A DNA stretch of 64,000 bases, taken from contig NC_044920.1 in the NCBI RefSeq assembly GCF_003576645.1, forward strand, positions 24,909,772 to 24,973,771. Reading direction: 5' to 3'. Positions 1,483 through 57,370 of this stretch are shown here, piece by piece; the stretch's first letter is position 1; each line of letters begins with the position of its first letter. The translations under genes and the position numbers were made by a program. The notes beneath the pieces were generated by a model. The model ran no database searches, was not told the DNA's origin, and saw nothing but the letters and a program-made list of their open reading frames with translations. This stretch comes from Ipomoea triloba. Taxonomy: Eukaryota > Streptophyta > Magnoliopsida > Solanales > Convolvulaceae.

Positions 1483-4400
1483 CTAAATGCGTTGATGCGA
1501 TTCTCCACCTCATTCTCCGTGTCATGTATGTACAATTGAGCAAATTTTGGACTACTACCGTCTTGAGGAAGCAACCCTCCCATTAAATGGAAGTTTTGAC
1601 CATTAATTCTAAATATTGGTGGGGCATTCCCAATATTTATAGATGTATTCACTTTTGCTCCTAAGGATGTAAAAGAGAACATGTTATTATACATCCTAAT
1701 GTTTTTCAAAAATTCAATACGTTTCTCTCCTTGACCGAAAAATAAGTTGTAGATTCTTGTTGGCGGTACCCCCAATCTTGGTAGCTTGATCTTGCCATGA
1801 AAACAGCATGTAGAATACTTAGGTATTGCGTGCCGCACCTCCTTATTAATACGTTCTCCATACCAGAAAATTGCATGGCAATGATCACAAATATTGTTGG
1901 GATCCCCAATATCATTGTAGATCACTACAAAATTTGAATTGAAATGTAAAAAAGATACTTTAATAGAACAAAATATTAACTCTTCTTTTACCAAAATTAA
2001 AGAATAATAGGATTCAAAATTGTTTAGAAAGTAACTACGTACCGTCGGGTGCAGGTGGAATTACATTAGTGTGGTTAATTACCACAACGGATGAAGTTTG
2101 TACATCAGTATTGATTTGGGGGGAAATAGATGGCACATTATCAACATCTTGAATATTTTCTAAAGAGGGAGAAAGTAATGAAATATGTTGGTACAATAGT
2201 GTAATAAAAAATATATTATTTTCACAATTCTATACTAATAACTAATTGTATCATGTTAATTGAAATTGAATCTCAGTATTTATAAAATCCACGCCGCATA
2301 GAAAATAATATATTTTTACTCACAAGATTATTTGAAAATATTCTAAAACATTACTTTCAGTGCAGACCTATAAATGTTCAAAATGTGTACCTAAACTTGT
2401 AGATGGTAATGAACATGTAGGTTCTACTCCATTAATGGTTGGTATGCATTTGGAACATTGTTTTCTTCATGTTGAACCGATCCAGCTGTAATGAAAGTCA
2501 ACAACATTGTATAGATCAACAAACTCACAACTCACTTATTATGCATAGTTTTTATTAACATTAGTATAAGTTCATTTGTAATTAAATGAATATGAAAATT
2601 TAAGAAACATTATTAAGATATATTATACAATGGAGATTTATATGAAATTAAATAAATAAATTTATGTCCTCATTCACATAGGAGGTTTAAAAAAAAGATA
2701 AAAACTCATTAAAAGTAAAAGTTGCTAACAGAACAATTTGCAATAATAAATTACATCTATATTAGACTGCTTACCAGCAAAACCGTTTTCCTCCATTTCT
2801 TTGCTTGTATCGTGCAATGTAGATGAAAATTCCTCTTCTAAATTGCGAGGAGGGTGAATTGATAAATTTGACCTCAACCTGTTTGTTCTATTTCTCGTCT
2901 CTTTTGGACAAAAAACATTGTTTTGTTAAGAAAGACATATGACTAAGATAGCATTGAAGTTGTTAACCATGATTGTCATTTTTTTTTTGATGTAATACTA
3001 AATTCTATTTAACTAACCTTTAGTAACGTTTTGGGAATGCAAGAGCCTTGTAGCATGACAGTTTGTTGTGGTCACCTGAAATGATTGAGATGATCTTCCC
3101 CGAGATGATTGCACTAATCATCCAGTTGAAGAAATTATATTTACAATACACATTTAATTTATAATGTGTAATCTAAAACTCTTTGATAAATAAAAATTAG
3201 TAAAGTTTTTTAATGGAATTGGATACTATTACGTATTGAACCTAAACTTTCAATTTTAAATCTCTACATTCAAACAAAAATTAACTAACCTTTAGTAACG
3301 TCACTGTACGTCAAGTGGCCAACTTCATGAAATTTTGTTGGTGTGTCCTTAAATAATTGAGATGTTCTTCCCCGCAATGATTGCACTAATAAAAAAGTTC
3401 CTCAAAAGTGATTTAAAAATATATTGTGCAAGAAGATATTTAAGTACAAAATTTAATTTGTACTATATAATTTAAAAACTATATAATAACTAACCATTAT
3501 TCAATTAATTTAATGGAATTGGAAGTTGATTACGTAATTAAACTACACTGTACAGTCTCAAGTAAAAAAATGCAGAACACACACCAAAAATTAAACAAAC
3601 CTTTAGTAGAGACACTGGACGTCAAATGCACAGCACTCCTCAAGTTTGTTGGTGTGTCTTGAAATACTTGAGATGATATTGGCCGCATTGATTGCACTAA
3701 TATAAAAGTTCAACAAAAGAGATTTAAAAATAGAATACAATTTCTAATGTGTAATTTAAAAACTATATAGTAAATAACCAGTAGTCAATTATTTTAATGG
3801 AATTTTATGTCTATGGCTAATTGCGACTACACTCGCATTTAGTAAAAAGCATAACACAGACCATTAAAAAAACTAACCTTTAGTAACGACAGAGGACGTC
3901 AAGTGCCCAACACTCCTCAAGTTTGTTGGTGTGTCTTGAAATCCTTTAGATGATATTCCCCCCGTTGATTGCGCTAATAAAAGAGTTGACCAAAAGTGAT
4001 TAATAACAAAAACAACATTCGTAATGGTTAATTTTCCAAATATATGATAACTAACCATTACTCAATTATTTATATGGAAATGGATCTCGATTACGTATTG
4101 AACCTCAACTTGTTTTTAGAAAAAAAAAAAGACAACAATTAAAGAAACCTTTAGTAACGTCAGTTGACGTCAATTGGCCACCACTCCGAAAGTTTGTTGG
4201 TGTGTATTGGCAACCTTGAGATGACATTCCAGAAGTTGATTGCACTAATATAAAGGTTGCACAAAAGTGATTTAAAAATAACATCTCAATTATAATGGTT
4301 AATTTTGAACTAAATGATAACTAACCATTAGTCAAGTCTCTTAATGGCAATGTATACGTGCTATTACGTCTTGAACCTACATTTCCAATTAGACAAAACC

Positions 4401-4869
4401 GAAACCAAAAGACTCAATGAGGATCAACAAAATCAAATTAAAATAGCGAAAATAAAATGAGTCAAATTATGGTACACCTAATATCATGTTAATAACTAAT
4501 TTTGTAAACAGTTTATATAAAAATGCGAGGTTCTATTATTACCTTTGTTGCAGCTGCCCCATTGGGATAGTGGCGTGTTAGAACTAATATTGGACTTTAT
4601 TAAGTTACCACCTGCAAATTAATGAGTTGTGGGTACAAATTATTATATATAACTACCATACATAAAATTACTAAAAATAAAATATATTTGTCAATAGTCA
4701 TTCGAAAAAGGTTGTTCTACTCATGTGAAATACTTACTATTATTCAAAATGGTCAATGTCGTATTTATAGAGTTCTCAAACACGCCAAATACGTAAGGAT
4801 CCGTGGGTGGCACATGATGTGGTGCTCTTGTTGGCAACACATGATGTTCATTGTCTGTGTTGTTGTTTT
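1483..4869 (-). pseudogene. Helitron Rep/helicase gene, N-terminal half, multi-exon, broken
   Basis: The last visible exon (1483-1924) encodes about 147 residues matching the start of plant Helitron helicase-like proteins: CDHCHAIFWYGERI, CCFHGKIKLPRL, NIRMYNNMFSFTSLGA, then FRINGQNFHLMGGLLP and PKFAQLYIHDTENE. It stops just before the HUH rolling-circle nuclease and the SF1 helicase, which are not in the window. Reading upstream on the minus strand, GT-AG exons in constant phase 1 fit at 4738-4869, 4543-4611, 4149-4244, 3878-3973, 3601-3696, 3290-3385, 3018-3113, 2775-2900, 2391-2485 and 2043-2159. All are a multiple of three except 2391-2485 (95 nt), which has lost one base and runs into a stop. 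The first coding exon was not found. An RPA-like gene lies upstream on the same strand, as in autonomous plant Helitrons. The exon model is inferred; the domain call is firm. Confidence 0.8.
3018..4244 (-). repeat. Five tandem copies of a 96-nt phase-1 exon within the Helitron Rep gene
   Basis: Exons 4149-4244, 3878-3973, 3601-3696, 3290-3385 and 3018-3113 are each exactly 96 nt, each preceded by an acceptor ending TTAG and followed by AAAG then a GT donor. Each adds 32 residues: start QS, often RG or SG near residue 5, SSQ, then QDTPTNLRS in the centre and HLTSS..VTK at the end. Copies differ at many positions, including inside the introns. Spacing between copies is 271, 277, 311 and 272 bp. 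Because each exon starts and ends in the same phase, gaining or losing copies would not shift the reading frame. I do not recognise the repeat as a named domain. Confidence 0.85.
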
Positions 4870-5123
4870 CTGCATTGTGAAAGACCATTATGTAAAATAA
4901 GCAAGTATACTACAATATTATACTTATTACTTAACAATCATATACTTTGTAAACATTATCTTAAAAAATTACATGAAATATTTTACAGACATTGTAGTAT
5001 AAAATTTTAGCGTATATATGTATAAACTACATATACGGACACACAATTATTAATATATATGTATTTTATATATATATAAAATATATACGGACACACCATT
5101 ATATCTGTAATATATTTATTTTG

Positions 5124-5178: not shown

Positions 5179-5517
5179 CCGTAGTGTTCATTTTGGATCT
5201 CCCAGCTGCACATCTCTCCCCCGTAGTGTTCATTTTGGATCTCCCAGCTGCACATCTCTCCCTCTTAGTGTTCATTTTGGATCTCCCAGCTGCACATCTC
5301 TCCCTCTCTACTCTAACCTCCATTTCTCTACCTGCACATCTCTCCCTCTCTACTCTAACCTCCATTTCTCTACTGCTATTACACTCATATCCTACTCTAA
5401 CCTCCATTTCTCTACTGCTATTACACTCATATCTGTAACTCTACGAACCCAGATCTTTAATCCATGCATATATCGTGTAACTCTACGAACCCAGATCTTT
5501 AATCCATGCATATATCG
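5179..5517. repeat. Chain of five exact 42-bp tandem duplications (cluster 1)
   Basis: Pairs of identical neighbouring 42-mers start at 5179/5221, 5224/5266, 5290/5332, 5350/5392 and 5434/5476. Each new pair begins inside or right after the previous one, so the sequence advances while repeating every 42 bases once. There are no mismatches between partners. Since 42 is a multiple of three, both strands stay open through the block and give spurious repetitive reading frames. This is most likely an artefact of contig overlaps left in the assembly. Confidence 0.9.
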
Positions 5518-5818
5518 ATAAACCTCGCCGTAAACGACATACCATAGCCGTTAATCGGCGACTTGAGGTACCGATACCATTAGCAAATTGAAGAAAAGGA
5601 TTTTGGTGCAAGATGGAGAACAATGAACTGGTAAGTTTCTGTTCAGAGTGTATTTAGTTTTGAGATCGTAGATCTACGATTTTCGACCTGCTTATTTTTG
5701 AAATGCATGTCTTTTCCGATGAAACTTGCAGGTTTGTTTTTTCGGTTACTTCTAGTGAGAAAGAAAACTACGGACGACTGGACTATGTACTGATTCACTG
5801 ACCCATGTGCTTGAAAAT

Positions 5819-6069
5819 GAAGTTTCAAGCTAATGTATTTGGTAATTTCTCTATTCATTTGAAGTTTCAAGCTAATGTATTTGGTAATTTCTCTATTCAT
5901 TTTGTTTTCCAAGCTAATGTATTTGGTAATTTCTCTATTCATTTTGTTTTCAGTTCTTAATCTTGCACGAAATCTGGACTTCATTTTGTTTTCAGTTCTT
6001 AATCTTGCACGAAATCTGGACTGTCAATTGTTTTCAGTTCTTAATCTTGCACGAAATCTGGACTGTCAA
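5819..6069. repeat. Chain of four exact 42-bp tandem duplications (cluster 2)
   Basis: Identical adjacent 42-mers start at 5819/5861, 5868/5910, 5938/5980 and 5986/6028. The unit length is the same as in the clusters at 5.2 and 7.5 kb although the sequences are unrelated, which argues against a minisatellite. Confidence 0.9.
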
Positions 6070-7538
6070 TGTTTTAAAGTTTCAACCTAGGGTATTTGGT
6101 AAAGTTTCAGTTTGTGTTATGTAATGACAACTCAAATATGTTGATTACTCAATTAGAAGGCTACCTATTCACTGTCAATTTGTATTGCCTTGGCCTGCAG
6201 TTAATGAATTGCCCTGAGTTCTGTAAATTTGAAATTTGTATAAAAAACTTAAGTTGATTTAAGTTTGTTGATACAATTTCAGTAATACATTACTGAAATT
6301 TGACTACAATTAGTGTTTATGAACACCTAAAAACCCTCAGTACATAGAGTGGTTTCGTGCTAAATGGTAATAGAAATTTACTATGTTTTAGTAGGTTAGA
6401 AATTTTCACTCTAAATATCTAACCTACGTAATCAACTCTAAAACCATTTGAAATGTAAAAGAATCAGAGTGAGTACCTTTCTCATTGGATGGATGTTTCC
6501 TTTTAGTGCCTATGACCGCTGATTTGGTGAGCTTCCTCATGCTTGCATTTGGTTATTAGTTTTTCTGTGTCTCATGTACAGTGAATAGGTAGTATTTATA
6601 CTGTAGTAATCAGCATCAATAATGGAGGGGACTTTTTTTTTTTCCAGTATGACATTGGAAGACTAAATGACTTACATGCCATTAATGATTTTAGCTCCAT
6701 AATGATGATTAACTTTATATGTAACCAAATAATTACACTGATGCATATTTTATTGACAATTTTTAACTGAATTGTTAGCCTAATGTTTAATTAAATTCTC
6801 TAATTGGCAGCTAAACTGACACAGTTTTAATACATATTCAATTAATAGCTTTTTTAATATTTATTATCCACAGGATTCAAGGTTGTGCATTGGCCTTCAT
6901 AACTGATGATTACAGAATAGTGTTATCCATATACTAAGGATGAATCAAGCAAACAACACACATGCTCTCAGTGGTGTGAAATAGATAAGTCACCTATTCA
7001 TTTTATAATTAGTTATTAATTAAAATAATGATCCAATTTGACTGAGATGATAGAATAATAGAAGAAATGTACTGGTTTTCTTGATTTACAATTTGGTCTA
7101 TTAGAAATGTACCATCTATTCAAATTTTCATTAAAAAAATAATACAGCTTACTGGTAAAAAATTTAAAACTTTGGATACTACCATCTCTTCAAAATTTTC
7201 AATTTAATGAAAGTAAAGTTTGTAAATTACCAACTCAAACTGTGTAGAGTATTGTCTTTCTGTTCATTTAAACACAATGACAGTTATGAATTGTTCTAGC
7301 ACTGGAATTTCTAATTCCTACTGTCAATATCTCAGTTTATATGCTAAGGATGAATCAAGAACATAACTGACACACTGTTAGTGGAGGCGAGAGGTAAGTC
7401 ACTTGTACGTATTCTTTTTTTTTTTTTTTGAAAACATTTGTACCTATTCTTAATTAGTTAGTAATACAGTGTCAGATTAGTGTTTTTTTTTGCTGGATTA
7501 GTTGAGCAATTTGTTCATTAAAAATTTGCTAGAAATGT
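6070..7538. other. AT-rich spacer inside the Helitron region, no gene seen
   Basis: No coding exon, RNA gene or complete mobile element is recognisable. Several homopolymer T runs occur, and one poly(A) micro-insertion with a 16-bp imperfect target duplication lies at 7401-7451. The stretch lies between the Rep gene and the RPA-like gene. Confidence 0.5.
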
Positions 7539-7971
7539 ATGGCAATTTGTTGACATAGTATTTCAACTGAGCAAATACTGATGGCAATTTGTTGACATAG
7601 TATTTCAACTGAGCAAATACTGAACTGATCTACATACTAAACACTGAACTAAGCAAATACAACTAAACAAATTTTCAAAATATAATTTATTGAATACAAA
7701 TGGAATGTATGTTACTAAGAAATATAATTTATTGAATACAAATGGAATGTATGTTACTAAGCAAATACAAATAAACCAATTTTCTAATTTATTGAGTACT
7801 AAGCAAATACAAATAAACCAATTTTCTAATTTATTGAGCCTAACTAAACAATTTTCAGAACTGTTTTCTAATTTATTGAGCCTAACTAAACAATTTTCAG
7901 AACTGCAGTACATACTAAGTGTAGACAGTAAACAATTTTCAGAACTGCAGTACATACTAAGTGTAGACAGC
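7539..7971. repeat. Chain of five exact 42-bp tandem duplications (cluster 3)
   Basis: Identical adjacent 42-mers start at 7539/7581, 7678/7720, 7755/7797, 7822/7864 and 7888/7930. The last three units overlap stepwise, so that the second half of one pair becomes the first part of the next. Partners are identical base for base. Confidence 0.9.
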
Positions 7972-8005
7972 TTTGCTAGGTTATAGCAGTGCTCCAACTT
8001 TGCTC

Positions 8006-8446
8006 AAAGTTTCTGCTTTACATCTCCTGCCCTTAGATCTTGAATCCTGCAACAATAATCCAAAATTCAAACTGTGGTTTAGTTAGGAATGCCACTTTTA
8101 TTTTGATCCACAACGGTTTGACCTGCAATACTTTTTTTTAAAACCAAAATAAGAAGCAGTCGCAATACATAACCAATAGGGAAATTCGGGGTACAGTTTA
8201 AAACAGAAAGCAACACTAGAAACAAAGTTTCTGCTTTACATCTCCTGCCCTTAGACCTCAAATCCTGCAACAATAATACAAAATTCACAGAGTGGTTTAG
8301 TTAGGAATGCCACTTTGATTTTGAACCACACCGGTTTGACCTGCAATACTGTTTTTTAATACCAAAATAATAAGCAGTCACAATACATAACCAATAGCGA
8401 AATTCGGGGTACAGTTTAAAACAGAAACCAACACCAGAAACAAAAC
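8006..8446. repeat. Diverged direct duplication of about 219 bp
   Basis: The block beginning AAGTTTCTGCTTTACATCTC (about 8006) and ending near CAACACTAGAAACAA recurs from about 8225 to 8446 with scattered substitutions and small indels (for instance TTAGATCTTG versus TTAGACCTCA). Unlike the 42-bp pairs it is clearly diverged, so it is a genuine older duplication. It lies just downstream of the RPA-like gene. Confidence 0.8.
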
Positions 8447-8504: not shown

Positions 8505-10514
8505 TCAATCTATCTTCTCTAACTTGACATGGCATTGCTTCACTTTCTTTCCACCCTTGGTTGAGGAGAATGAATCAAGCAAACAACGCTTGACTGGTCC
8601 ATCAGTAGTACAATCTGTACTACTCGTTGGAGCCAACAGAGCAACAGGACTCTCCCCCTCATCACTCTCAAACCCCTGACCATTGAAAACATATATTAAC
8701 CAAAGTTAGCATTTGAGGAAGACTTACTGTTTAACTGCATTTAGTTAAAAAAGAAACCCACTACCTCCAAAAATTTATCATCCCCCTCGCTTATAGGGCC
8801 TTCAGAGTTAAAGTCATTTTCTTCTAAAGCTAGAAGATCAGGGCAGAGTTGTTGCAGCAGTAACTGGTCAGTGTTAATTTTCACTACAGGAAATGGGATA
8901 TTACGACGAACAAAGTGTTCCTTCTTTGCTGAAATCTTGAAAAGCATTGTCCTCCCTTTGAGTTCATATATCTCCTTTATGTGTCCAAGGTTCTGAAAAA
9001 ATGAAGCTACAGATTAGTTATAAGGGTTGACAATAAAATAAATCTCAACTTAAAAAATGCCCTATAACAAATTTAGAAAAAACTTACATTCAAATTCCTT
9101 TCATATAGGTCTTCTGCTGCAATACCTAGCAAATCAACGCATTCCCTATCCCATATCAAAAAGGATGCAGTACCCTTCATGTCAACTACACGCACTCTGA
9201 GTTTATACTTTCTAACACTACCATCAGGGATTTCATTACATTTGAAACACTTATTGACACCCTCAGAAAGTTTGAGTGCTTTATTGCAACCCTTCTTAGG
9301 ACAGGAAATATAAAACCAATCACTTGGTTTTTCCACACCATTTACCCTTGCAGCTATCCAAAAGTCACCAAACTGGATAAAAAAAAAAGAATACAGATAT
9401 TAAATTAATGAATAAGAATTCGCAAATGTATTCCAAAATCATTAATTACATCTTCAGTGTCGTAGAGATCATTAATAGTAATGAGCTCCAGCGATTGAGT
9501 GCTCGAATCATCATGAGTGTTTGTGAAACTCATGCTAGACATGGAAGCTATACTCCTCATGGGTGTAAGCTGGGACAGCTCTGTCATACTGTAAATTATA
9601 AAGAAGAGTTAATAACAAATATAAAAACAATGAAAAAAGAATTCAGTTCATGTAAACTTACCTTTCTTTAAACTGCTGCATTTCAGGACAATCAATATTA
9701 AAGTGAATTTGAGTGACATCATAGGAGGAGCAGATTTTTACATCACCATCTGAAATTATATATGTGTATGTTAGTATAGGTGCACATCTAGAATCTAGAA
9801 TATGATTTAAAGTACTTTGATAAACAGTGATGTCACTTACCTCTAACACCAAATTTCAGTCTACAGCACTGGATCAGCACATACAGAGGCTCATTACCAG
9901 GAGATTGATAGAAAGGCTCAATTTTTGCAACATGGTCATCCCAAAAAGTATAGGTTAAACGATTACCCCTAAGCAATCAAACGCAAATATTTAGCGAACA
10001 ACAGATGCATCCTACTTATATGGTAAAAAACAGATAATACATTACTTACTGTGAATCTTCTATAACAAAATCAATTAGTCTAGTATCATTGCCATTGATG
10101 GTCTTCTGTTGTGGAGCATGTATTTGAACAACTCGACCAATCAAATCTAATTGAAAAACATATGCTGTCAAAAGAAAGGCAGAAAACAGAAACAACTTTT
10201 GTACACTAATTAATGGACAGAAAATTAAGATTTGAATGCTTACCAAACAGCTCTTTGTCATTTATGCTTGGGTTACTCCTCAAACTTTGGAATGACCTGA
10301 TTCTGTACATGTGTCTAGGGAAATTTGCAGACCTATATTCTTTCATAATAGTCTCACCATTGAATTGCAACATGTATTCATGCATACTGGTTTTATAAGT
10401 ATGCCAGTTGGCTACCACAAAGAAGTTTTTTACACAATAGACAGATCCTTCAACAAAACTGTTAAGGAATTTAGGAAGGATGTCGTTTGGTATATGGGCA
10501 TGCATAACAGTCCC
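8505..10514 (-). CDS. RPA70-like single-stranded DNA-binding protein, Helitron-associated, 5' incomplete
   Basis: Eight GT-AG exons read in one continuous phase: 10244-10514, 10050-10146, 9841-9968, 9662-9749, 9450-9588, 9088-9372, 8765-8992 and 8505-8675, giving 468 residues and a stop (KLEKID then TGA). The first exon carries an OB-fold strand set (HAHIPNDILPKF, YMLQFNGETIM), exons 2-3 a second (DLIGRVVQIHAP, GNRLTYTFWDDHV), and exon 6 the C-terminal RPA1 domain with a zinc ribbon CPKKGC..CFKC and the following LRVRVVDMKGTASFLIWD. The tail is polar with a basic end. The N-terminal part of the first DNA-binding domain is missing: exon 1 starts in phase 0 at an acceptor, and no upstream exon was found before the P450 promoter. 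RPA-like proteins are common cargo of plant Helitrons and probably coat displaced single strands. No stop or frameshift was seen inside. Confidence 0.82.
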
Positions 10515-10923
10515 CTGAAGAGATTATTATTATTTTTTGAAATAAAATATTTTATAATTATTAAGTCTTAAAAAATTGTTTAAAAAAATGGCGCCTAATT
10601 AACGGCCATTAGTTTACTAGGTTAGGCGCAACGTAACGATCAGTTAGGACAATGCACAACACGTTTGGGAGCAAAGGACAATGTACAAGATTGCATGTTT
10701 TTTTTATGTAGCGATGGCAACGCCAATATAATAATGGCTTTACTGTCAAAATCTAAGACTAGATGAAATGAAAATAGCATATAAGCCATCAGCCTGATAT
10801 TAAATTACCAATATAACCCTCATAGGTCATACCATAGACGACCATTCTCTATATATATCAAAACATAAAGAGCAGATTGGCATTCACTCATTCCATTATA
10901 TTCCTACAACTTAAAGAGAGAGA
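10515..10923 (+). promoter_or_regulatory. Upstream region of the first P450 gene, with TATA box
   Basis: TATATATA at about 10852-10858 lies some 70 nt before the ATG at 10924, the usual distance for a plant promoter plus a short leader. The rest of the stretch is AT-rich and shows no gene. The left border of the Helitron region (its 5' TC end on the minus strand) should lie here or nearby but could not be fixed. Confidence 0.55.
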
Positions 10924-12464
10924 ATGGATTTCCAGAACATTATAGTTGCAGTAGTGTTTGCCTGGACTTTGGTCCAAGCCCTCTGTGTAGTAAGCAAAAA
11001 GCTTCCACCAGGGCCATTTCCATGGCCGGTCATCGGAAACCTTCACTTGCTTGGAAACCAACCCCACAAATCCCTAGCGCGGCTTGCCGGAAAATATGGT
11101 CCGGTTATGAATCTGAAGCTGGGCATGATAAACACAGTGGTTATTTCTTCGTCCAACATGGCCAAACAAGCCCTACAAAAACAAGACTTAACCTTCTCCA
11201 CCCGGTCTTGCCCCGATGTCGTGAGAGCTTGCAATCACAACCAAGTCTCTGTTGTTTGGCTCCCCGTCGCCTCCAAGTGGACAGCCCTTCGAAAGGCCAT
11301 GAATTCCAACATCTTTTCCGGCGTCAAGCTCGACAATAATCAGCATCTGAGAGTTAGAAAGATCCAGGAGCTGATTATTTACTGCCAAAATAAAAGTCAG
11401 GTAGGGGAAGCGGTGGATATTGGGCGTGCAGCTTTCAGGACTACCCTCAATTTGCTGTCCAACACCATTTTCTCTAAGGATTTAACCGACCCTTTCTCGG
11501 ACTCTGCCAAAGAATTCAAAGAATTGGTTTGGAACATCATGGAGGAAGCTGGAAAGCCCAACCTGGTTGATTACTTTCCCTTTCTTGAAAAGTTTGATCC
11601 CCAAGGTTCAAGACGTCGCATGAAAGGTCATTTCACTAAGGTGCTAGAGCTTTTCGAAGATTTGATTGATGAACGGCTGGAAGAGAGAAAAGTGATGGGC
11701 AGCAAAAATGTTGATGTATTAGATTCACTTCTTAACATCACCCAAGAAAGACCAGAGGAGATCGATAGGAAGTATATTTTGCATGTGTGCTTGGTATGTT
11801 AATTAGTTGGTTTGGTCTTCGAAATAATTGCTTGATTTAGAACCCTATTGAATCTTACAAGTATTATCAGGATATGTTTGCGGCGGGGACAGACACATCA
11901 TCGAACACATTAGAGTGGATCATGGCGGAGCTTCTTAATAATCCAAATGCTATGGCAAAAGCTCAAGCAGAGCTGGCTGATGTTATTGGTAAAGGCAAGC
12001 CAATACAAGAAGCTGATGTTACCCGTTTGCCTTACTTGCAATGCGTCATAAAAGAGACTTTTAGAATGCACCCTCCTGTTCCATTCTTGATTCCGCGCAA
12101 AGTTGAACAGGAAGTCAACCTATGTGGACACACTATTCCTAAGGACTCACAAATTCTAGTCAACTTATGGGCAATTGGGCGTGACTCTAGTATTTGGAAA
12201 AATTCATTGATCTTCAATCCTGAGCGATTCTGGAATTTGGAAATAAATGTTAAAGGACAAGATTTTGAACTCATTCCATTTGGTGCAGGTAGAAGAATTT
12301 GTCCGGGATTTCCAATGGCAATGAGGATGGTTCCGGTAATGTTGGGCTCCTTACTAAACTCATTCCAATGGAAACTTGAAGATGAGTTAGACATGGAGGA
12401 AAAGTTTGGCATTACATTGGCTAAAGCTCATCCTCTTAGGGCTATCCCCATTCCCTTTAAATAG
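10924..12464 (+). CDS. Cytochrome P450, CYP76-type (geraniol 8-hydroxylase-like), copy 1
   Basis: Two exons, 10924-11793 and 11871-12464, with a 77-bp phase-0 intron, give 487 residues. Residues 1-22 form a membrane anchor, followed by the hinge LPPGPFPWPVIGNL. Key motifs are [10 protein letters not shown] in the I helix (about 294-303), the E-R pair in KETFR (E352, R355), NPERF (406-410) and the haem loop [10 protein letters not shown] with Cys434. Such endoplasmic-reticulum enzymes hydroxylate small terpenoids or other specialised metabolites using cytochrome P450 reductase. CYP76 membership is inferred from the anchor-to-hinge text, the [12 protein letters not shown] core and the tail [17 protein letters not shown]. 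The anchor is shorter than in copy 2: the basic linker [11 protein letters not shown] is missing. A TATA box lies about 70 nt upstream. Substrate cannot be told from sequence. Confidence 0.95.
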
Positions 12465-13175: not shown

Positions 13176-14752
13176 GGAGCAAAATTAATGGTTTTGATTT
13201 ACTGGTGATCAAAATCATATACAGTTTCATCGATAACTGGAATCTTACATGGACCAAAAAACTGAGTACAGCAAGGGATAAGACAAGGAACACCGCCCGG
13301 TCTCCGTTCTCTTTAATTTGGTCATAAGATGCTACAAAAGTTGGTTTATCAGCTCTCTCCTCCAGAGGTTAGTGGTTTGAGTTCTTGAGGTTTTTTTTTT
13401 TTTGAAAGCTGTTCTTGAATTTTAAAAAAATAAAATAAAAAACCAAGAATCTTTTTCTTGGGGAGATAAATATTCAAATTGCAAAAAAAAAAATTATTAT
13501 ATATTTTCTTTTCAAAAAAATTCAAATTGCATGTGCTGGCAGTAATTGCCCAGTAGCTAGCATGATTTTTTTTTGATTTATATACACTAATAATGTATTT
13601 TTATTTACCGCCTAAAAGAGCCTAGTATGAATAGTGGTGCAAACCCACTTCCCTTACCAATGTGGACAAAAGCTTACTTCAAAACTTTTCCACATTAATT
13701 TCCATCTCAAATGGGTAAATTTGAGAACCAATTTCTCATTCACCCATTATCCATTTTGAGCTTTACAATATATCAACATCTTCGTCTAACTACGAAGAAC
13801 ATGAATCCGCATTGACCCGACCCGGATTGAATGTGGACCCCACTTATATTTGTACCACAAAATGATCACTTAAAATGTCATTTTAAAGCTATTTTTCCAA
13901 CACCCACTCTTCAAATGCAACCACGGTCTTCACCTTCTTCTTCATGCCCTACAAATGAAACTAAAAACCGATTTAATTAACCGTGAAAAGACCCTACTTG
14001 TGTGAGGCCAGGCGGCCAGCTCAATGTGTCCTTTGTCTTTTTGAATCTCCTCCACCGCAATGGGAATGGCCCTAATGCGATTTATCATATTGGGTGGCAA
14101 GAATGTTTCCAATTGATGGTATGGATTTTTTTGGAGTCGTTGTAATGCCCCCATAGAAAATTTCTGCAAATCTTGTCAATATCGTCACAAGTACCAACCA
14201 GTAGGGTCATTGTTTGCATGGTATAGGTAGGGACAGTGGCAAAGGAGGATTGGACCCCTTCTTCAATATTTAATACACATATTTGGTTCTATGTGACTAA
14301 TATTTAATTTGTACCAAATTCATGTCCGGACTCCCAAGTCGAAGCCACTGGGAACATAAGATATCCTGCAAACTTATATGTATATATATATTGAATAATG
14401 TTATTTTTACATGATTACATCTGAATATTTATCTCCTTATGTTTTAATAAAATTCTTTTTATCCCTCCCTTATTGTATTCTCGCACTTCTTCCTACCTTT
14501 TCTTAAGCTTTAATAAAGTTAATTGTTTTAAAAAATAAAATTCTTTTTATTCATGATCTATGGTGAATTGCTGACCTATCTGGCAATAAAAATTATTTCT
14601 TTATTTATCAAATATAAAATGAATCAATTATTATCACTTAACTACTTAAGGAGTATAAATTAGGAGGAAAATGTAACCTTGCTCATGTATATATATATAT
14701 ATATAGTATAGTATAGATTAGCATTCCCAGATCTCAGGGTGAGAGAAAGTCA
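13176..14752. other. Spacer between P450 relic and P450 copy 2
   Basis: The stretch is AT-rich with poly(A)/poly(T) micro-insertions flanked by short direct repeats at 13381-13418 (8 bp) and 13472-13531 (12 bp). A minus-strand open frame at 13942-14169 has no recognised relatives and no supporting splice context. An AT microsatellite with TATA character at about 14688-14705 lies some 50 nt before the ATG of copy 2. Confidence 0.5.
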
Positions 14753-16338
14753 ATGGATTTCCAGAGCATTTTGGTAGCAGTATTGTTGGCCTGGGCTTTG
14801 ATCAAAGTCCTGCTGTGTTTATCAGCAAAGAGAAGAAGCAGTAAAGGCAAGAATCTGCCGCCTGGGCCATTTCCATTGCCGCTGTTCGGAAACCTTCATT
14901 TGCTCGGAAACAAACCCCATCTGTCGTTGACACGTCTAGCCCAAAAATATGGTCCAGTTATGAATCTGAAACTGGGCATGATAAACACAGTGGTCATTTC
15001 TTCATCCGCCATGGCCAAACAAGCTCTGCAGAAGCAAGACTTAGCCTTTTCTACCCACCGGTCAATCGCTGATGCTCTGCGAGCTAACAATCATTCCCAA
15101 TTCTCTGTTGTTTTTCTCCCTGTTGCCTCCAGGTGGAGAGCCCTCCGTAAGATCATGAATTCCAACATCTTTTCCGGCAACAGGCTCGAGATCAACCAGC
15201 AGCTGAGGGCTAAAAAGATCGAGGAGCTTATAATTTACTGCCAAAAGAGCAGCGAGGTAGGGGAAGCTGTGGATATTGGGCGTGCAGCTTTCAGGACTAC
15301 CCTCAATTTGCTGTCAAACACCATTTTCTCTAAAGATTTAACCGACCCTTATTCGGATTCCGGTAAAGAGTTCAAGGATTTGGTGTGGAATATGATGCTG
15401 GAAGCTGGAAAACCCAACCTGGTTGACTACTTTCCCTTTCTTGAAAAGTTTGATCCCCAGGGTGTCCGGCGTCGCTTGACATGCCATTTCACTAAGGCCC
15501 TAGACCTTTTTCAAGATTTGATTGATGAACGGCTGGAGGAGAGGAAAATCAAAGGCAACAAAAATGAGGATGCATTAGATTCACTTCTCAATGTCAGCCA
15601 AGAAAGGCCTGAGGAGATTGATATGACTCACATTCAGCACATGTTCTTGGTATTTATGTCAATCCCCTTCATGTACTCATAATCTCTGCTATACTGACTC
15701 TTACACGCAGTGTCATATATACATGTTAACAGGACTTATTTGCGGCAGGAACTGATACATCATCAAGCACATTAGAGTGGGCAATGGCTGAACTTCTCAA
15801 GAACCCAGAAGTTATGGCAAAAGCTCAAGCGGAACTTGCAGATGTTATCAATAAAGGCAAGCCAATACAAGAATATGATGTTACTCATCTTCCTTACTTG
15901 CAATGCATAGTGAAAGAAACATTTAGAATACATCCACCAGTTCCGTTCTTGATTCCGCGTAAAGTTGAACATGACGTGAATCTATGTGAATACACTATTC
16001 CCAATGACTCACAAATTCTTGTCAATGTATGGGCAATGGGGCGTGACCCCAGCATCTGGGAGAACCCATTGGTCTTCAAGCCCGAGAGATTTTGGAATAT
16101 AGGAATGGATGTAAGAGGACAGGATTTTGAGCTCATTCCATTTGGAGCAGGCAGAAGAATTTGTCCTGGATTACCTCTAGCGGTAAGAACAGTTCCAGTA
16201 ATGTTAGGGTCTTTATTGAACTCATTCGAGTGGAAGCTTGAGGGTGGCATTGCACCCATGGATTTGGACATGGACGAGAAGTTTGGTATTACATTGGCTA
16301 AAGCTTGTCCTCTTAGGGCTATCCCTATCCCCATTTAA
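14753..16338 (+). CDS. Cytochrome P450, CYP76-type (geraniol 8-hydroxylase-like), copy 2
   Basis: Exons 14753-15649 and 15733-16338 with an 83-bp phase-0 intron encode 500 residues. There is an N-terminal anchor ([20 protein letters not shown]), a basic linker, then [14 protein letters not shown]. Catalytic features are AGTDTSSS (304-311), KETFR (E361, R364), KPERF (415-419) and [10 protein letters not shown] with Cys443. The protein is clearly a tandem paralogue of the copy at 10924, with the same intron position and long identical stretches such as [14 protein letters not shown] and [20 protein letters not shown]. It carries an extra GGIAPM segment before the [10 protein letters not shown] tail that is absent from copy 1. 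A membrane-bound monooxygenase of specialised metabolism is expected; the substrate is unknown. Confidence 0.96.
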
Positions 16339-53587: not shown

Positions 53588-53654
53588 TTGGTGCTTTCAT
53601 TGAGAGCCGAGATCAGATCTCAGGCTAAAATCACAAAATCAAAAAACCACACGG

Positions 53655-55454
53655 TTGATCTCATCACTATCAATGGCATCTGGATCCAGCAGCTCGCATA
53701 CACCTAGTCAGGTGAACAAGGGTCTCCCCTCGGGTGATCTTCGTGAGCAGCTCAACAGTAACCGTGGAGGTGACCTTCGCAGCCAACTCAACAACAATAA
53801 CCGCAGAGAAGGTGACCTCCTTACCCAACTCAAAAACAACCATGGTGGTGGCCGCACTAGCCAACTCAACAACAACCATGGTGGTGGCGGTACTCCCCTC
53901 CCAGCAACTGCTGCTCCCGCCCAGGTGGTGGACCTTCAGGCAGCAGCGCAGTTCATCCAACAGGCGGCGGCGACGGTGGCCCAACTAGTCGTAGGAATGC
54001 AAGGCCAGATCTTACTGCCACCACCCCCTTTGGAGGAAGAAGTGCAATCTCCGAGGCAAAACAGAACTCAACGACAGGAAGGTGGAACTCAACCAGTTTC
54101 CAGATCTGTTCGAGAACGACCGGCGGCTTCTAGATCTATTCGAGATCGGCTGGGGGTGCAAGGATCCTCCAATAGAGGTCCCCGTGCCCAAGCAGGAAAG
54201 GCAGTAACCAAACGACCATCCGGAGAAAGGATGGGCGAATCTGGTGGATTGGCTCCGCGTCACTCCACAAGACACAAAACACCACAAGAAGGCCTGGTGG
54301 AAAGACTCCAAAGGCAGATAGATGATTTGGAAAAGAAAGTAGACGCAAGAGAACACTCACCAGAACCTGAAGTAAGAATGGCTGCTCCATTCTCTCCTGA
54401 CATAATGGAAGTTCCTCTTCCAAAAGACTTTCGACTACCCACCATCAAGGCCTACACTGGCACTTCGGATCCACGTACCCATATGACAAGATACAAGGCA
54501 GCCATGGTCATGATTGGGGCAAGCGATGCCATCATGTGCAGAGCATTCTTGTCCACTTTGGACGGAACGGCTCAGGATTGGTTTAACACAATCCCGGACG
54601 GATCAATTCAAACTTTTGCAGAGCTATCCAAAAGTTTCTTGTCCTATTTCTCAGGAAGTATACAACATAAGAAACCATTCTCACATCTCGGCGGGGTAAA
54701 GCAGGATAAGGGGGAAAGCCTGCGAGACTTCTTAAGCAAATGGAAAAAAGAAGTCAACAGCGTATATGACTTCGACTCGAAGGCAGCAATTCTCACCTTC
54801 ATCCAAGCACTGAGGTCAGGCGATTTCCACAAACTACTGAACACCCACCACCCACGCTCTTATGAGGAACTCATGAGAACGGCCAACCGGTACGCAGACG
54901 CAGAGGAGGCTGACAGGAGAAAAAAGGATGATGAGGAAGGACGAAAGAGTGGGCGACCTGATAAAGTTGGTCCGCCCAGCTAGGCACCACGACCAAACCA
55001 ACCACCCTCAACGAAGGGAAGAGATGAGCGACCTCGTCTCGCCTCACCGCGGCACTTAACACCGCTTACTCACCCGATTAGCGTGATTCTAAGTCACGCT
55101 GAGGAAATGGGAATGGTGCATTTTCCCTCAGAGTGTATGGCAGTTTCTACGGGCGAGGACCAAACTAAGTACTGTCGGTTCCACCGGCAGGTTGGACATG
55201 ATACTAACGAGTGTCATACTTTAAAAGGACAAATAGAGGAACTGGTGCAGAGAGGATATTTTACCCAATTCGTTGAGTATCCGGGACAGTACCAGCATCA
55301 ACAAAGCCTACCCGACAATGTGTGGCGAAAGGAAGAAGATCCTGAGCCTTTAGCTTCCAACACCAAGAGGAGGAGGTGCGACCTGGGCGAGGAAGCAAGA
55401 AACAGTGAGCTAGAGGAAAAGTCCGCGCAACGCAAAAAACATGTAATTCGCTGA
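53655..55454 (+). pseudogene. Retrotransposon gag, interrupted by one in-frame TAG
   Basis: The frame opens at 53655 (a second ATG at 53673, MASGSSSSHTPSQ, is equally likely) and runs 442 codons to a TAG at 54981-54983. It then continues without another stop to TGA at 55452. Residues about 60-115 are repetitive and Gly/Asn/Gln-rich. The Ty3/gypsy gag domain follows: LPKDFRLPTIKAYTGTSDP, LSTLDGTAQDWFNTIPDGSI, DKGESLRDFLSKWKKEV and HHPRSYEELMRTANRYADAE. Beyond the TAG comes a zinc-knuckle-like YCRFHRQVGHDTNECHTLKG with IEELVQRGYFTQFV. Because reading frame and family order are kept, the TAG is either a recent nonsense mutation or a readthrough codon; its 3' context (GCACCA) is not the known plant CARYYA leaky signal. 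Confidence 0.88.
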
Positions 55455-55700: not shown

Positions 55701-55719
55701 TTGGTTTGAAGTCGGCCAC

Positions 55720-56460
55720 CTCATCAAGTGGCGCTGCTCCTCAAGCGGGTGTCACCTCATCAAACTGGTGTCACCTCATCAAGTGGCGTTGCTCCTCACG
55801 CAACGTCACCTCATCAAGTGGGTGTCACCTCATCAAGTGGCGCTGCTCCTCAAGCAGCGTCACCTCATCAAGTAGCGCTGCTCCTCAAGTAGCGTCATCT
55901 CATCAAGTGACGCTGCTCTTCAAGCGGGTGTCACCTCATCAAGGGGTGTCACCTCATCAAGCTGGTGTCACCTCATCAAGCGGGCGTCACCTCATCAAGA
56001 TCAAGCGGGTGTCACCTCATCAAGTAGCGCTGCTCCTCAAGCAGCGTCATCTCATCAAGTGACGCTGCTCTTCAAGCGGGTGTCACCTTATCAAGCGGGT
56101 GTCACCTCATCAAACTGGTGTCACCTCATCAAGCGGGTGTCACCTCATCAAGCTGGTGCGTCACCTCATCAAGCGGGTGTCACCTCATCAAGTGGCGCTG
56201 CTCCTCACGCAGCGTCACCTCACCAAGCTGGTGTCACATCATCAAGTGGCGCTGCTCCTCAAGCAGCGTCACCTCATCAAGCTGGTGCGTCACCTCATCA
56301 AGTGGTATCACCTCCTCAAGTGGCGTCACCTCCACGAGCAGTGCCACCACCTCGAACAGCATCACCACCTCGAACAGCGTCACCACCTCGAGCAGCGTCA
56401 CCTGCTCGAGCAGAGTCACCACCTCAAGCAGCGTCACCTCATCAAGTGGCGCTGCTCCTC
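55720..56460 (+). repeat. Array of a 19-bp repeat (GTGTCACCTCATCAAGCGG) and longer variants
   Basis: About thirty diverged units of GTCACCTCATCAAG plus a short variable piece, interleaved with a GCGCTGCTCCTCAAGCAG variant, then degenerate CACCACCTCGAACAGC units. A 19-bp period is not a multiple of three and no stop occurs in it, so three plus-strand frames stay open for 130-190 codons; none is likely a protein. Confidence 0.85.
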
Positions 56461-57040
56461 AAGTGCTTTTGCTTCCTCCACTTGTGCATCCGCCTCCTGC
56501 ACTTGTGCACTCGCATCCTCTACTGGTGCATCCGTCTCCTCAAATGCGTCTATCGCCTCCACTTGTACATCTGCCTCCTTCACTTGTGCGTTCACCTCCA
56601 TAAGCAAAAGGACTCAGTAGTTGGTCATGGTCTGCCCTGATCAATTTGGTTAAAAAACAAAAAACAAAATAATAATAAAAAATCTAAGCTCTAATCCCTT
56701 AGGGCCGGCACGAGATCCAATCTCGCTAGCTACCTAACGGGAGAGTGTTTTTCTGAGCCCAGCCAAGGGCTTGGATTCAAAAAACACCACACTCTAATCC
56801 CTTAAGGCCAGCACGAGATCTGATCTCGCTAGCTACCTGACGGGAGAGTTGACCTCGGAGGGTGTTTTCTGGGTAAAGCTTAACGCTTTGCTACGAAAAC
56901 ACCACACTCTAGTCCCTTAGGGCCGGCACGAGATCCGATCACGCTAGCTACCTAACGGGAGAGCTGACCTTTGACCGAACCTACGAATGGTCGAAGTGAA
57001 CTCATGCAAGAGCCCTGAGCAAAAAAAAAAAAAAAACGCG
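56461..57040 (+). repeat. Three roughly 100-120 bp tandem units with GGCCGGCACGAGATC
   Basis: TCTAATCCCTTAGGGCCGGC, GAGATCCAATCTCGCTAGC and TACCTAACGGGAGAG recur near 56690, 56792 and 56908 with diverging spacers. They are internal to the retrotransposon and non-coding. Confidence 0.75.
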
Positions 57041-57370
57041 CACCGTGACTTCGGCCCAACACCGAGGCACGGTCACGGACCGTGACCACGGCGCTGGCCG
57101 AGATCACGTACCGTGACTTCGGCACTGGCCGAAGTCACGCTACGGCGTGACCTCGGCCTAGCGCCGAGGTCACGCACCGTGACTTCGGGCGCTGGCGTGA
57201 CCTCGGCACTGGCCGAAGTCACAGTTGTGTGACTTCGGCGCTGGCCGAGGTCACGCCCGTGACCTCGGTACTGGCCGAAGTCACATCGCCGCGTGACTTC
57301 GGCCCAGCGCCGAGGTCATGTGACCTCGGCCCCGTGCCGAAGTCACAGTTGTGTGACCCGACACGGTACC
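57041..57370 (+). repeat. Array of GTGACTTCGGC..GCCGAGGTCAC palindromes
   Basis: GC-rich block with about ten alternating GTGACTTCGGC and GCCGAGGTCAC halves, loops GCTG or ACTG. Any transcript would be strongly structured just upstream of the polypurine tract. Confidence 0.8.

Follow-up and report, generated by a model that had tools for sequence, protein, structure and literature searches.

We found that the N-terminal part of a Helitron RepHel gene in Ipomoea triloba contains five units of 96 nt, arranged in tandem on the minus strand at positions 3018-4244 of the window, the 64,000-nt stretch of DNA that we analysed (C5:24909772-24973771). Judging from comparisons across the genome (462 Mb, 17 contigs) and with proteins of other Ipomoea species, we think it probable that the gene begins with a flexible tail made of symmetric exons. 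Such a tail would tolerate both the tandem gain and the loss of exons, since neither disturbs the reading frame.

The sequence-only reading had described five exons of 96 nt, each running from phase 1 to phase 1 and each with its own introns, and the interval, number, length and phase are all as it claimed; each unit is also bounded by AG/GT. Read from their repetition and their borders, the units are as follows.

Positions 4149-4244, minus strand: unit 1 (type T), 96 nt, phase 1-1
Positions 3878-3973, minus strand: unit 2 (type A), 96 nt, phase 1-1
Positions 3601-3696, minus strand: unit 3 (type B), 96 nt, phase 1-1
Positions 3290-3385, minus strand: unit 4 (type L), 96 nt, phase 1-1
Positions 3018-3113, minus strand: unit 5 (type E), 96 nt, phase 1-1, the most diverged of the five

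Each unit is preceded by ATTAG and followed by GTT, all five are open in phase 1, and they are mutually 61-85% alike. The introns after units 1-4 are 175-215 nt long. The interval 3305-3400, from the same unit scan, is an off-register alternative that overlaps unit 4, not a sixth unit. A repeat search recovered five copies of 166 nt in direct orientation, at spacings of 272, 311, 277 and 271 nt, and TRF gave a period of 277 nt with 3.2 copies. Because the repeat period spans an exon plus an intron, the two were duplicated together. The array has the properties of tandem symmetric exons: equal length, equal phase, introns of their own and a head-to-tail order.

Other features of the gene and its surroundings in the window are listed below.

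Positions 9073-10523, minus strand: exons of an RPA-like gene, upstream (Rep_fac-A_C at 9073-9399, DUF223 at 10206-10523)
Positions 4738-4888, minus strand: first coding exon as far as visible, with an in-frame ATG at 4888 as the presumed start codon
Positions 4543-4611, minus strand: 69-nt exon, phase 1-1
Positions 2775-2900, minus strand: 126-nt exon with an RNLEEEF motif, phase 1-1
Positions 2391-2485, minus strand: 95-nt exon
Positions 2043-2159, minus strand: 117-nt exon, phase 1-1
Positions 1483-1924, minus strand: first conserved RepHel exon, phase 1 in and phase 2 out, with borders read from the sequence that match those of relatives
Positions 1-1430, strand unassigned: right part of an inserted element, probably LTR-retrotransposon-like, in the intron after the conserved exon

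The neighbouring exons of 69, 126 and 117 nt in the earlier list were thus correct, and it omitted the exon at 2391-2485. The sequence of its 132-nt exon (4738-4869) is present; as a separate exon it did not hold up, since, with an in-frame ATG at 4888, this interval probably belongs to the first coding exon as its 3' part. The context of this ATG recurs upstream of the exon in four other copies (L013, L016, L017 and C3). The exon at 2391-2485 aligns in seven other copies; it is 96 nt long in five of them (L013, L016, L017, L018 and L023), and in L014 and L015 it reaches 96 nt after a one-base extension. Thus, the window copy, with 95 nt, is frameshifted at this exon.

The placement of the array in a Helitron Rep gene was borne out by the conserved exon, PF14214, HUH and helicase motifs and the RPA-like gene. 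The HUH and helicase parts fall outside the window: they lie some 10.5-15.6 kb to its left, on the strand of the array, with N stretches in between. That strand also carries a PF14214 (Helitron_like_N) match with E 9.6e-46, at C5:24898339-24898830, roughly 11 kb to the left. By eye, same-strand open reading frames left of the window contain HAH (in GLPHAHILIFL), YLFKY (in KYLFKYVNKG) and GYGGTGKTF, which we take to be the HUH motif, the tyrosines and the helicase Walker A motif, respectively. The RPA-like gene was recognized by its profile matches (Rep_fac-A_C, 1.5e-09; DUF223, 3.7e-08). A Helitron RepHel, a plant-type RPA companion and dispersal in multiple copies were therefore all found. 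The window gene is split by the insertion and by N stretches and is not one intact gene; we regard the window copy as a decayed member of a plant-type Helitron. In the neighbouring segment L009 (C5:24893772-24903771) the helicase part is present twice with N nearby, which reflects either a duplication or an assembly error. On the upstream side, the side that we inspected, homology to several other copies stops at window position 10524, possibly a truncation. Just past this end lie what we take to be two cytochrome P450-like genes (10915-12464 and 14717-16338).

The sequence-only reading proposed exon-level repeat expansion and suggested counting copies in related elements. A DNA search with the array found ten loci, along with further short pieces at C5:1365 kb and on C8, and all 49 matches in a search with one unit peptide fell within the ten loci, at three to six per locus, which restricts the units to a single family. 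The loci carry five units on C2, six on C3, five on C4, five on C5 (the window), three on C6, five and four on C9, five on C10, five on C14 and six on C16. The C16 locus has the same units as that on C3 and may be the C3 locus assembled twice, leaving nine loci. Five other copies (C2, C4, C6 and both on C9) have PF14214 about 2.1-2.2 kb beyond the array. In the window family the unit order is T-A-B-L-E, in C3 it is T-A-B-A-B-(decayed L)-E, and in C6 it is L-L-L. Seven copies, including that in the window, share one order of units, in full or in what remains of it, at 91-100% identity; one of these seven lacks unit 1, and the number of units is otherwise unchanged in this recent burst. Three loci (C5:1365631, C8:16353470 and C12:12168134) contain the first exon or exons, and there the match to the array family ends at the array start; we have taken these, from their alignments, as probable fragments.

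Five copies were joined exon by exon (L013, L016, L017, L023 and C3). The joined N-terminal frame of 1,020 nt was open in three of them (L016, L017 and C3). The others carry a 125-nt exon that shifts the frame (L013) and a stop inside the 126-nt exon (L023). We also found a donor of AT after unit 2 in L017, a gap in the conserved exon of L016, and a stop at the end of unit 4, which is cut short, in L015. No fully intact copy was seen among those examined. In C3, a seventh unit has decayed, with stops and no donor, and there is no match to the 96-nt downstream exon; the joined frame is open despite the decayed unit, and the acceptor before the 117-nt exon is GG. The decayed unit and the unmatched exon, in a copy whose remaining frame is open, amount to an observed case of exon loss.

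The search of the unit sequence against plant proteins, which the sequence-only reading had proposed, was positive. All 12 matches were Ipomoea batatas proteins of the same N-terminal kind, containing 6, 6, 5, 4, 5 (one partial), 4, 4, 4, 3, 4, 2 and 1 units. Thus, the idea that related Rep proteins might lack any such repeat is contradicted, by other loci in this genome as well as by these proteins. When units were assigned to the nearest type, orders such as A-B-A-B-A-E emerged, and A and B often alternated, which suggests that exon pairs were probably copied together. By eye, P0009 repeats an exon of the 126-nt type and P0010 one of the 117-nt type. The I. batatas entries probably come from automatic gene prediction; they favour reading these segments as exons and fall short of proving splicing. 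Two of them, P0001 and P0002, when read by eye, join segments resembling the RPA gene to RepHel units, which may reflect faulty prediction or genuine read-through transcription. A search for longer proteins with the array scored 5,020 candidates and yielded none at E <= 0.01, and no full-length RepHel protein with the tail was seen in it; the query was padded with X, which makes this a weak search.

Other exons of the tail have been copied in sister families. The motif of the first exon was also found, weakly, at 30 other places (E 0.002 to 4.5), and at least 13 of these lie within about 6 kb of a PF14214 match. We read five of these 13, chosen for low E and convenient size rather than at random, and three carry tandem copies of other tail exons. 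C6b (L082) has three copies of a 135-nt exon, with pair identities of 0.86, 0.81 and 0.83, C13 (L080) has two copies of a 135-nt exon, and C8b (L084) has two copies of a 153-nt exon (identity 0.72) within an open joined tail. A repeat search of C9c (L083) found no direct repeat of 60 nt or more. C1 (L081) contains an apparent chimeric exon and duplications of 495 nt at 97-98% identity; we do not count it as firm because it also contains eight 42-bp assembly artefacts. On the sample read, symmetric exons are thus a recurrent feature of the tail in these Helitrons, and different tail exons appear to have been copied in different lineages. Nine further proteins, seven from I. batatas and two from I. 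trifida, all match the exon of the 135-nt type. P0017 has three such matches and P0018 has two; P0015 also has two, of which the second spans 10 residues, and each of the remaining six has one. By eye, an exon of the 138-nt type is doubled in P0014 and P0016, and a pair of the 60-nt and 138-nt types is repeated in P0013. A 57-60-nt exon in four sister loci encodes RVPLNDVTN (L080), RGPLNDVSN (L081), RGPLNDVTN (L082) and RVPFNDLTN (L084). We assume that this motif resembles the destruction-box pattern RxxLxxxxN, a candidate likeness in which the fourth sequence has F for L.

The exon or intron status of all these segments is putative, being read from sequence comparison and from the I. batatas protein models. 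In five loci, all 33 modelled tail exons are open in phase 1, and 28 of them in that phase only; our scan of the sister loci admitted only exons of phase 1-1, so the uniform phase there arises partly by construction. The intron after the conserved exon is in phase 2 in the four loci where both sides are readable (C13, C1, C6b and C8b). Among 31 distinct units from nine loci, a list that excludes C16 and the decayed seventh unit of C3, 30 are open in the coding frame, compared with one and none in the other two forward frames; the exception is in L015. A simulation of neutral decay gave P=0.034 for all five window units being open, which is modest. The exons of the window units align without a single gap column in all ten pairs, whereas the introns of units 1-4, compared in six pairs, show 5-40 gap columns; the four intron pairs that involve unit 5 are not clean, as the 180-nt stretch used downstream of that unit extends into the next exon. 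The proposal that symmetric exons can be gained or lost without a frameshift agrees with this uniform phase, with the loss in C3 and with the duplications elsewhere.

Splice scores locate the exons less well. In the L017 copy, a scan that was free of phase picked units 3 and 4, gave other acceptors to units 1 and 5, and missed unit 2, which has a mutated donor there. Of the nine exons modelled in L017 it recovered five, and in C8b all five. For the 135-nt exons it preferred an asymmetric form of 71 nt, and the 5' border of these exons is uncertain in this genome; the I. batatas models P0013 and P0017 include the longer form of the exon. The unit borders, as we have drawn them, are thus putative and rest more on repetition and frame than on splice scores.

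The residues of the tail evolve quickly, and the adjacent conserved exon is constrained. Pooled dN/dS was 0.63-0.87 for the tail compared with 0.08-0.21 for the conserved exon (0.08 in C3, 0.21 in C6), where L016 was left out owing to its gaps. Between copies, the repeat exons gave 0.87 (L016), 0.63 (C3, four units) and 1.83 (C6, one unit with 7 changes), and the other tail exons gave 0.86 (L016), 0.71 (C3) and 0.72 (C6). Differences between the window units are spread evenly over the three codon positions (82, 95 and 85), and dN/dS ranged from 0.48 to 4.35 over the ten pairs, exceeding 1 in seven of them. Exon identity was 71-85% and intron identity 63-77% in the six clean window pairs; exons being more conserved than introns, some constraint acts on the units. 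Thus, where the sequence-only reading turned on purifying selection, its case holds for the frame and the length of the exons, whereas the residues are much less constrained. An AF2 model of P0001, built on a shallow alignment of 10 sequences, is of low confidence (mean pLDDT 37.7), with 29-37 over the array in blocks of 10 residues and no secondary structure. The unstructured prediction and the weak residue constraint do not favour a folded binding surface. Whole-sequence scores for Arm-DNA-bind_2 (PF12167) were 6.6e-08 for P0001, which is above the cut-off, 0.001 for P0002 and 0.0024 for the window array. As no single stretch passes and the matches cover positions 28-51 of the 65 in the profile, we set this domain aside as a sum of weak repeats.

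The array could instead be a selected module, in which repeats rich in Ser, Thr and Gln form a tail for multivalent binding or for regulation, and the number of units tunes transposase activity, binding of DNA or RPA, or escape from host control. We consider this possible but unlikely. It would fit the 48 of 49 unit matches that lack an inner stop at the ten loci, with the L015 unit as the exception, the positions that recur among units, the A-B pairs repeated in both C3 and I. batatas, the many unit pairs with dN/dS above 1, the composite Arm-DNA-bind_2 match, and the case of Helraiser, whose N-terminus is required for binding ssDNA (PMC4778049). However, residues are weakly constrained between copies, sister families have copied different exons, no structure is predicted, and the Arm-DNA-bind_2 match is partial, as described above. 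A related proposal seems to us quite unlikely: that the RepHel N-terminus may be an evolvable cassette of exons, in which tandem duplication, perhaps together with alternative splicing, would alter the number, order and kind of segments, with lineages using different exons, and would tune the transposase or its escape from the host. That the intervals are intronic repeats, never used as exons in splicing, is improbable. The I. batatas models are probably automatic and some are fused to RPA-like exons, and splice scores fail to single out all unit borders; however, openness is specific to one frame in 30 of 31 units, exons without gaps alternate with gapped introns, and AG/GT stands at nearly all borders.

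Helitrons are known to capture gene fragments (PMC3288121), and the array might have been amplified from captured host fragments of exon size. We reject this as very improbable, although the sequence-only reading had allowed for the capture of host exons: the protein relatives that we found (12 of 12) all come from Ipomoea and share these N-terminal exons, the units repeat one another in tandem, and no unit match occurs beyond the ten loci (49 of 49 candidates scored). That the assembler created the tandem copies is scarcely credible. There is a clear class of adjacent duplications of exactly 42 bp in unrelated sequence, 14 in the window at 5179-7928 and eight in L081 at 916-2785, some of the latter inside the conserved exon; these are most likely unmerged k-mer overlaps from assembly, and none were found in six other loci tested (L009, L010, L080, L082, L083 and L084). 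However, no such duplication lies within 3018-4244, the array has a period of 271-311 nt with units 61-85% alike, and it is present at ten loci and in proteins annotated from another species.

Based on these comparisons, we propose a model in which a run of short exons with phase-1 introns encodes a probably disordered N-terminal tail of the plant Helitron RepHel. Duplicating or losing any tail exon, or block of exons, together with its introns would leave the frame intact. The sequences show that duplications and losses have accumulated separately, in the 96-nt exon here (one to six copies) and in the 135-nt and 153-nt exons of sister families; selection would act on frame and exon length more than on residues. 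The main role of the tail may be that of a flexible leader ahead of the zinc-finger-like, HUH and helicase parts. The number of units may drift, by unequal recombination or replication slippage between the exon-intron repeats, in a manner nearly neutral to transposition. Three observations sit less easily with a flexible tail that tolerates copying: the seven of ten window unit pairs with dN/dS above 1 could mean diversifying selection, the higher identity of exons than of introns points to some constraint, and the number of units was stable in the recent burst of seven copies, except in the one lacking unit 1.

Helitron transposases vary widely in their N-terminal parts, and this genus would offer a concrete route to such variation through the copying of exons of uniform phase. 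Exon blocks as well as single exons appear to have been copied in tandem in separate families, and the proteins and loci form a natural series of one to six units for probing the part of the tail in transposition. Symmetric exons in host proteins can be tandemly copied without a frameshift; here, in contrast, it is the transposon's own gene in which repeats have expanded, and the tail affected has no predicted structure. A search of the open-access literature by titles and the starts of abstracts, a scope that takes in few subscription papers, found no description of exons copied in tandem within a Helitron RepHel gene.

Hel-It1 of Ipomoea tricolor was reportedly described by Choi et al. in 2007. 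Like the window element, it is an Ipomoea Helitron with RPA and Rep/Hel genes, according to an article that discusses it (PMC3288121). Xuan-Feng, or FENG8, of wheat is likewise a plant RepHel: its gene is split into seven exons, its N-terminal domain is larger, and a zinc-finger-like motif precedes the HUH domain; however, the available part of that article does not mention tandem exon copies (PMC13286980). The same source gives the first 264 residues of FENG8 as predicted to be disordered except for two helices, and the first 110 residues of Helraiser as disordered (PMC13286980). The low pLDDT of our array model agrees with this published disorder at the start of both proteins. In Helraiser, from bat, an N-terminal region also precedes the nuclease and helicase, and ssDNA binding requires the N-terminal 489 residues (PMC4778049). 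However, the zinc-finger-like part belongs to that region in Helraiser and follows the array here, and the portion of the article available mentions no exon array. The Mothra elements of rice are plant Helitrons with an RPA-like gene in the mother element and with tandem repeat blocks, but these blocks are described, in the part of the source available, from non-autonomous elements and not from RepHel exons (PMC4683698).

Additional tandem repeats were observed outside the exons. A 218-bp tandem duplication (92%) lies at window positions 8005-8444, near the RPA-like gene, and a 144-bp one (93%) lies in L082 at 2769-3056, outside the modelled exons; tandem copying is therefore not restricted to exons. 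Last, the window contains GC-richer tandem repeat blocks at 55717-56589 and 57071-57358, with periods of about 18-21 and 31-32 bp, beside an open reading frame (53604-54983) that is presumably gag-like.
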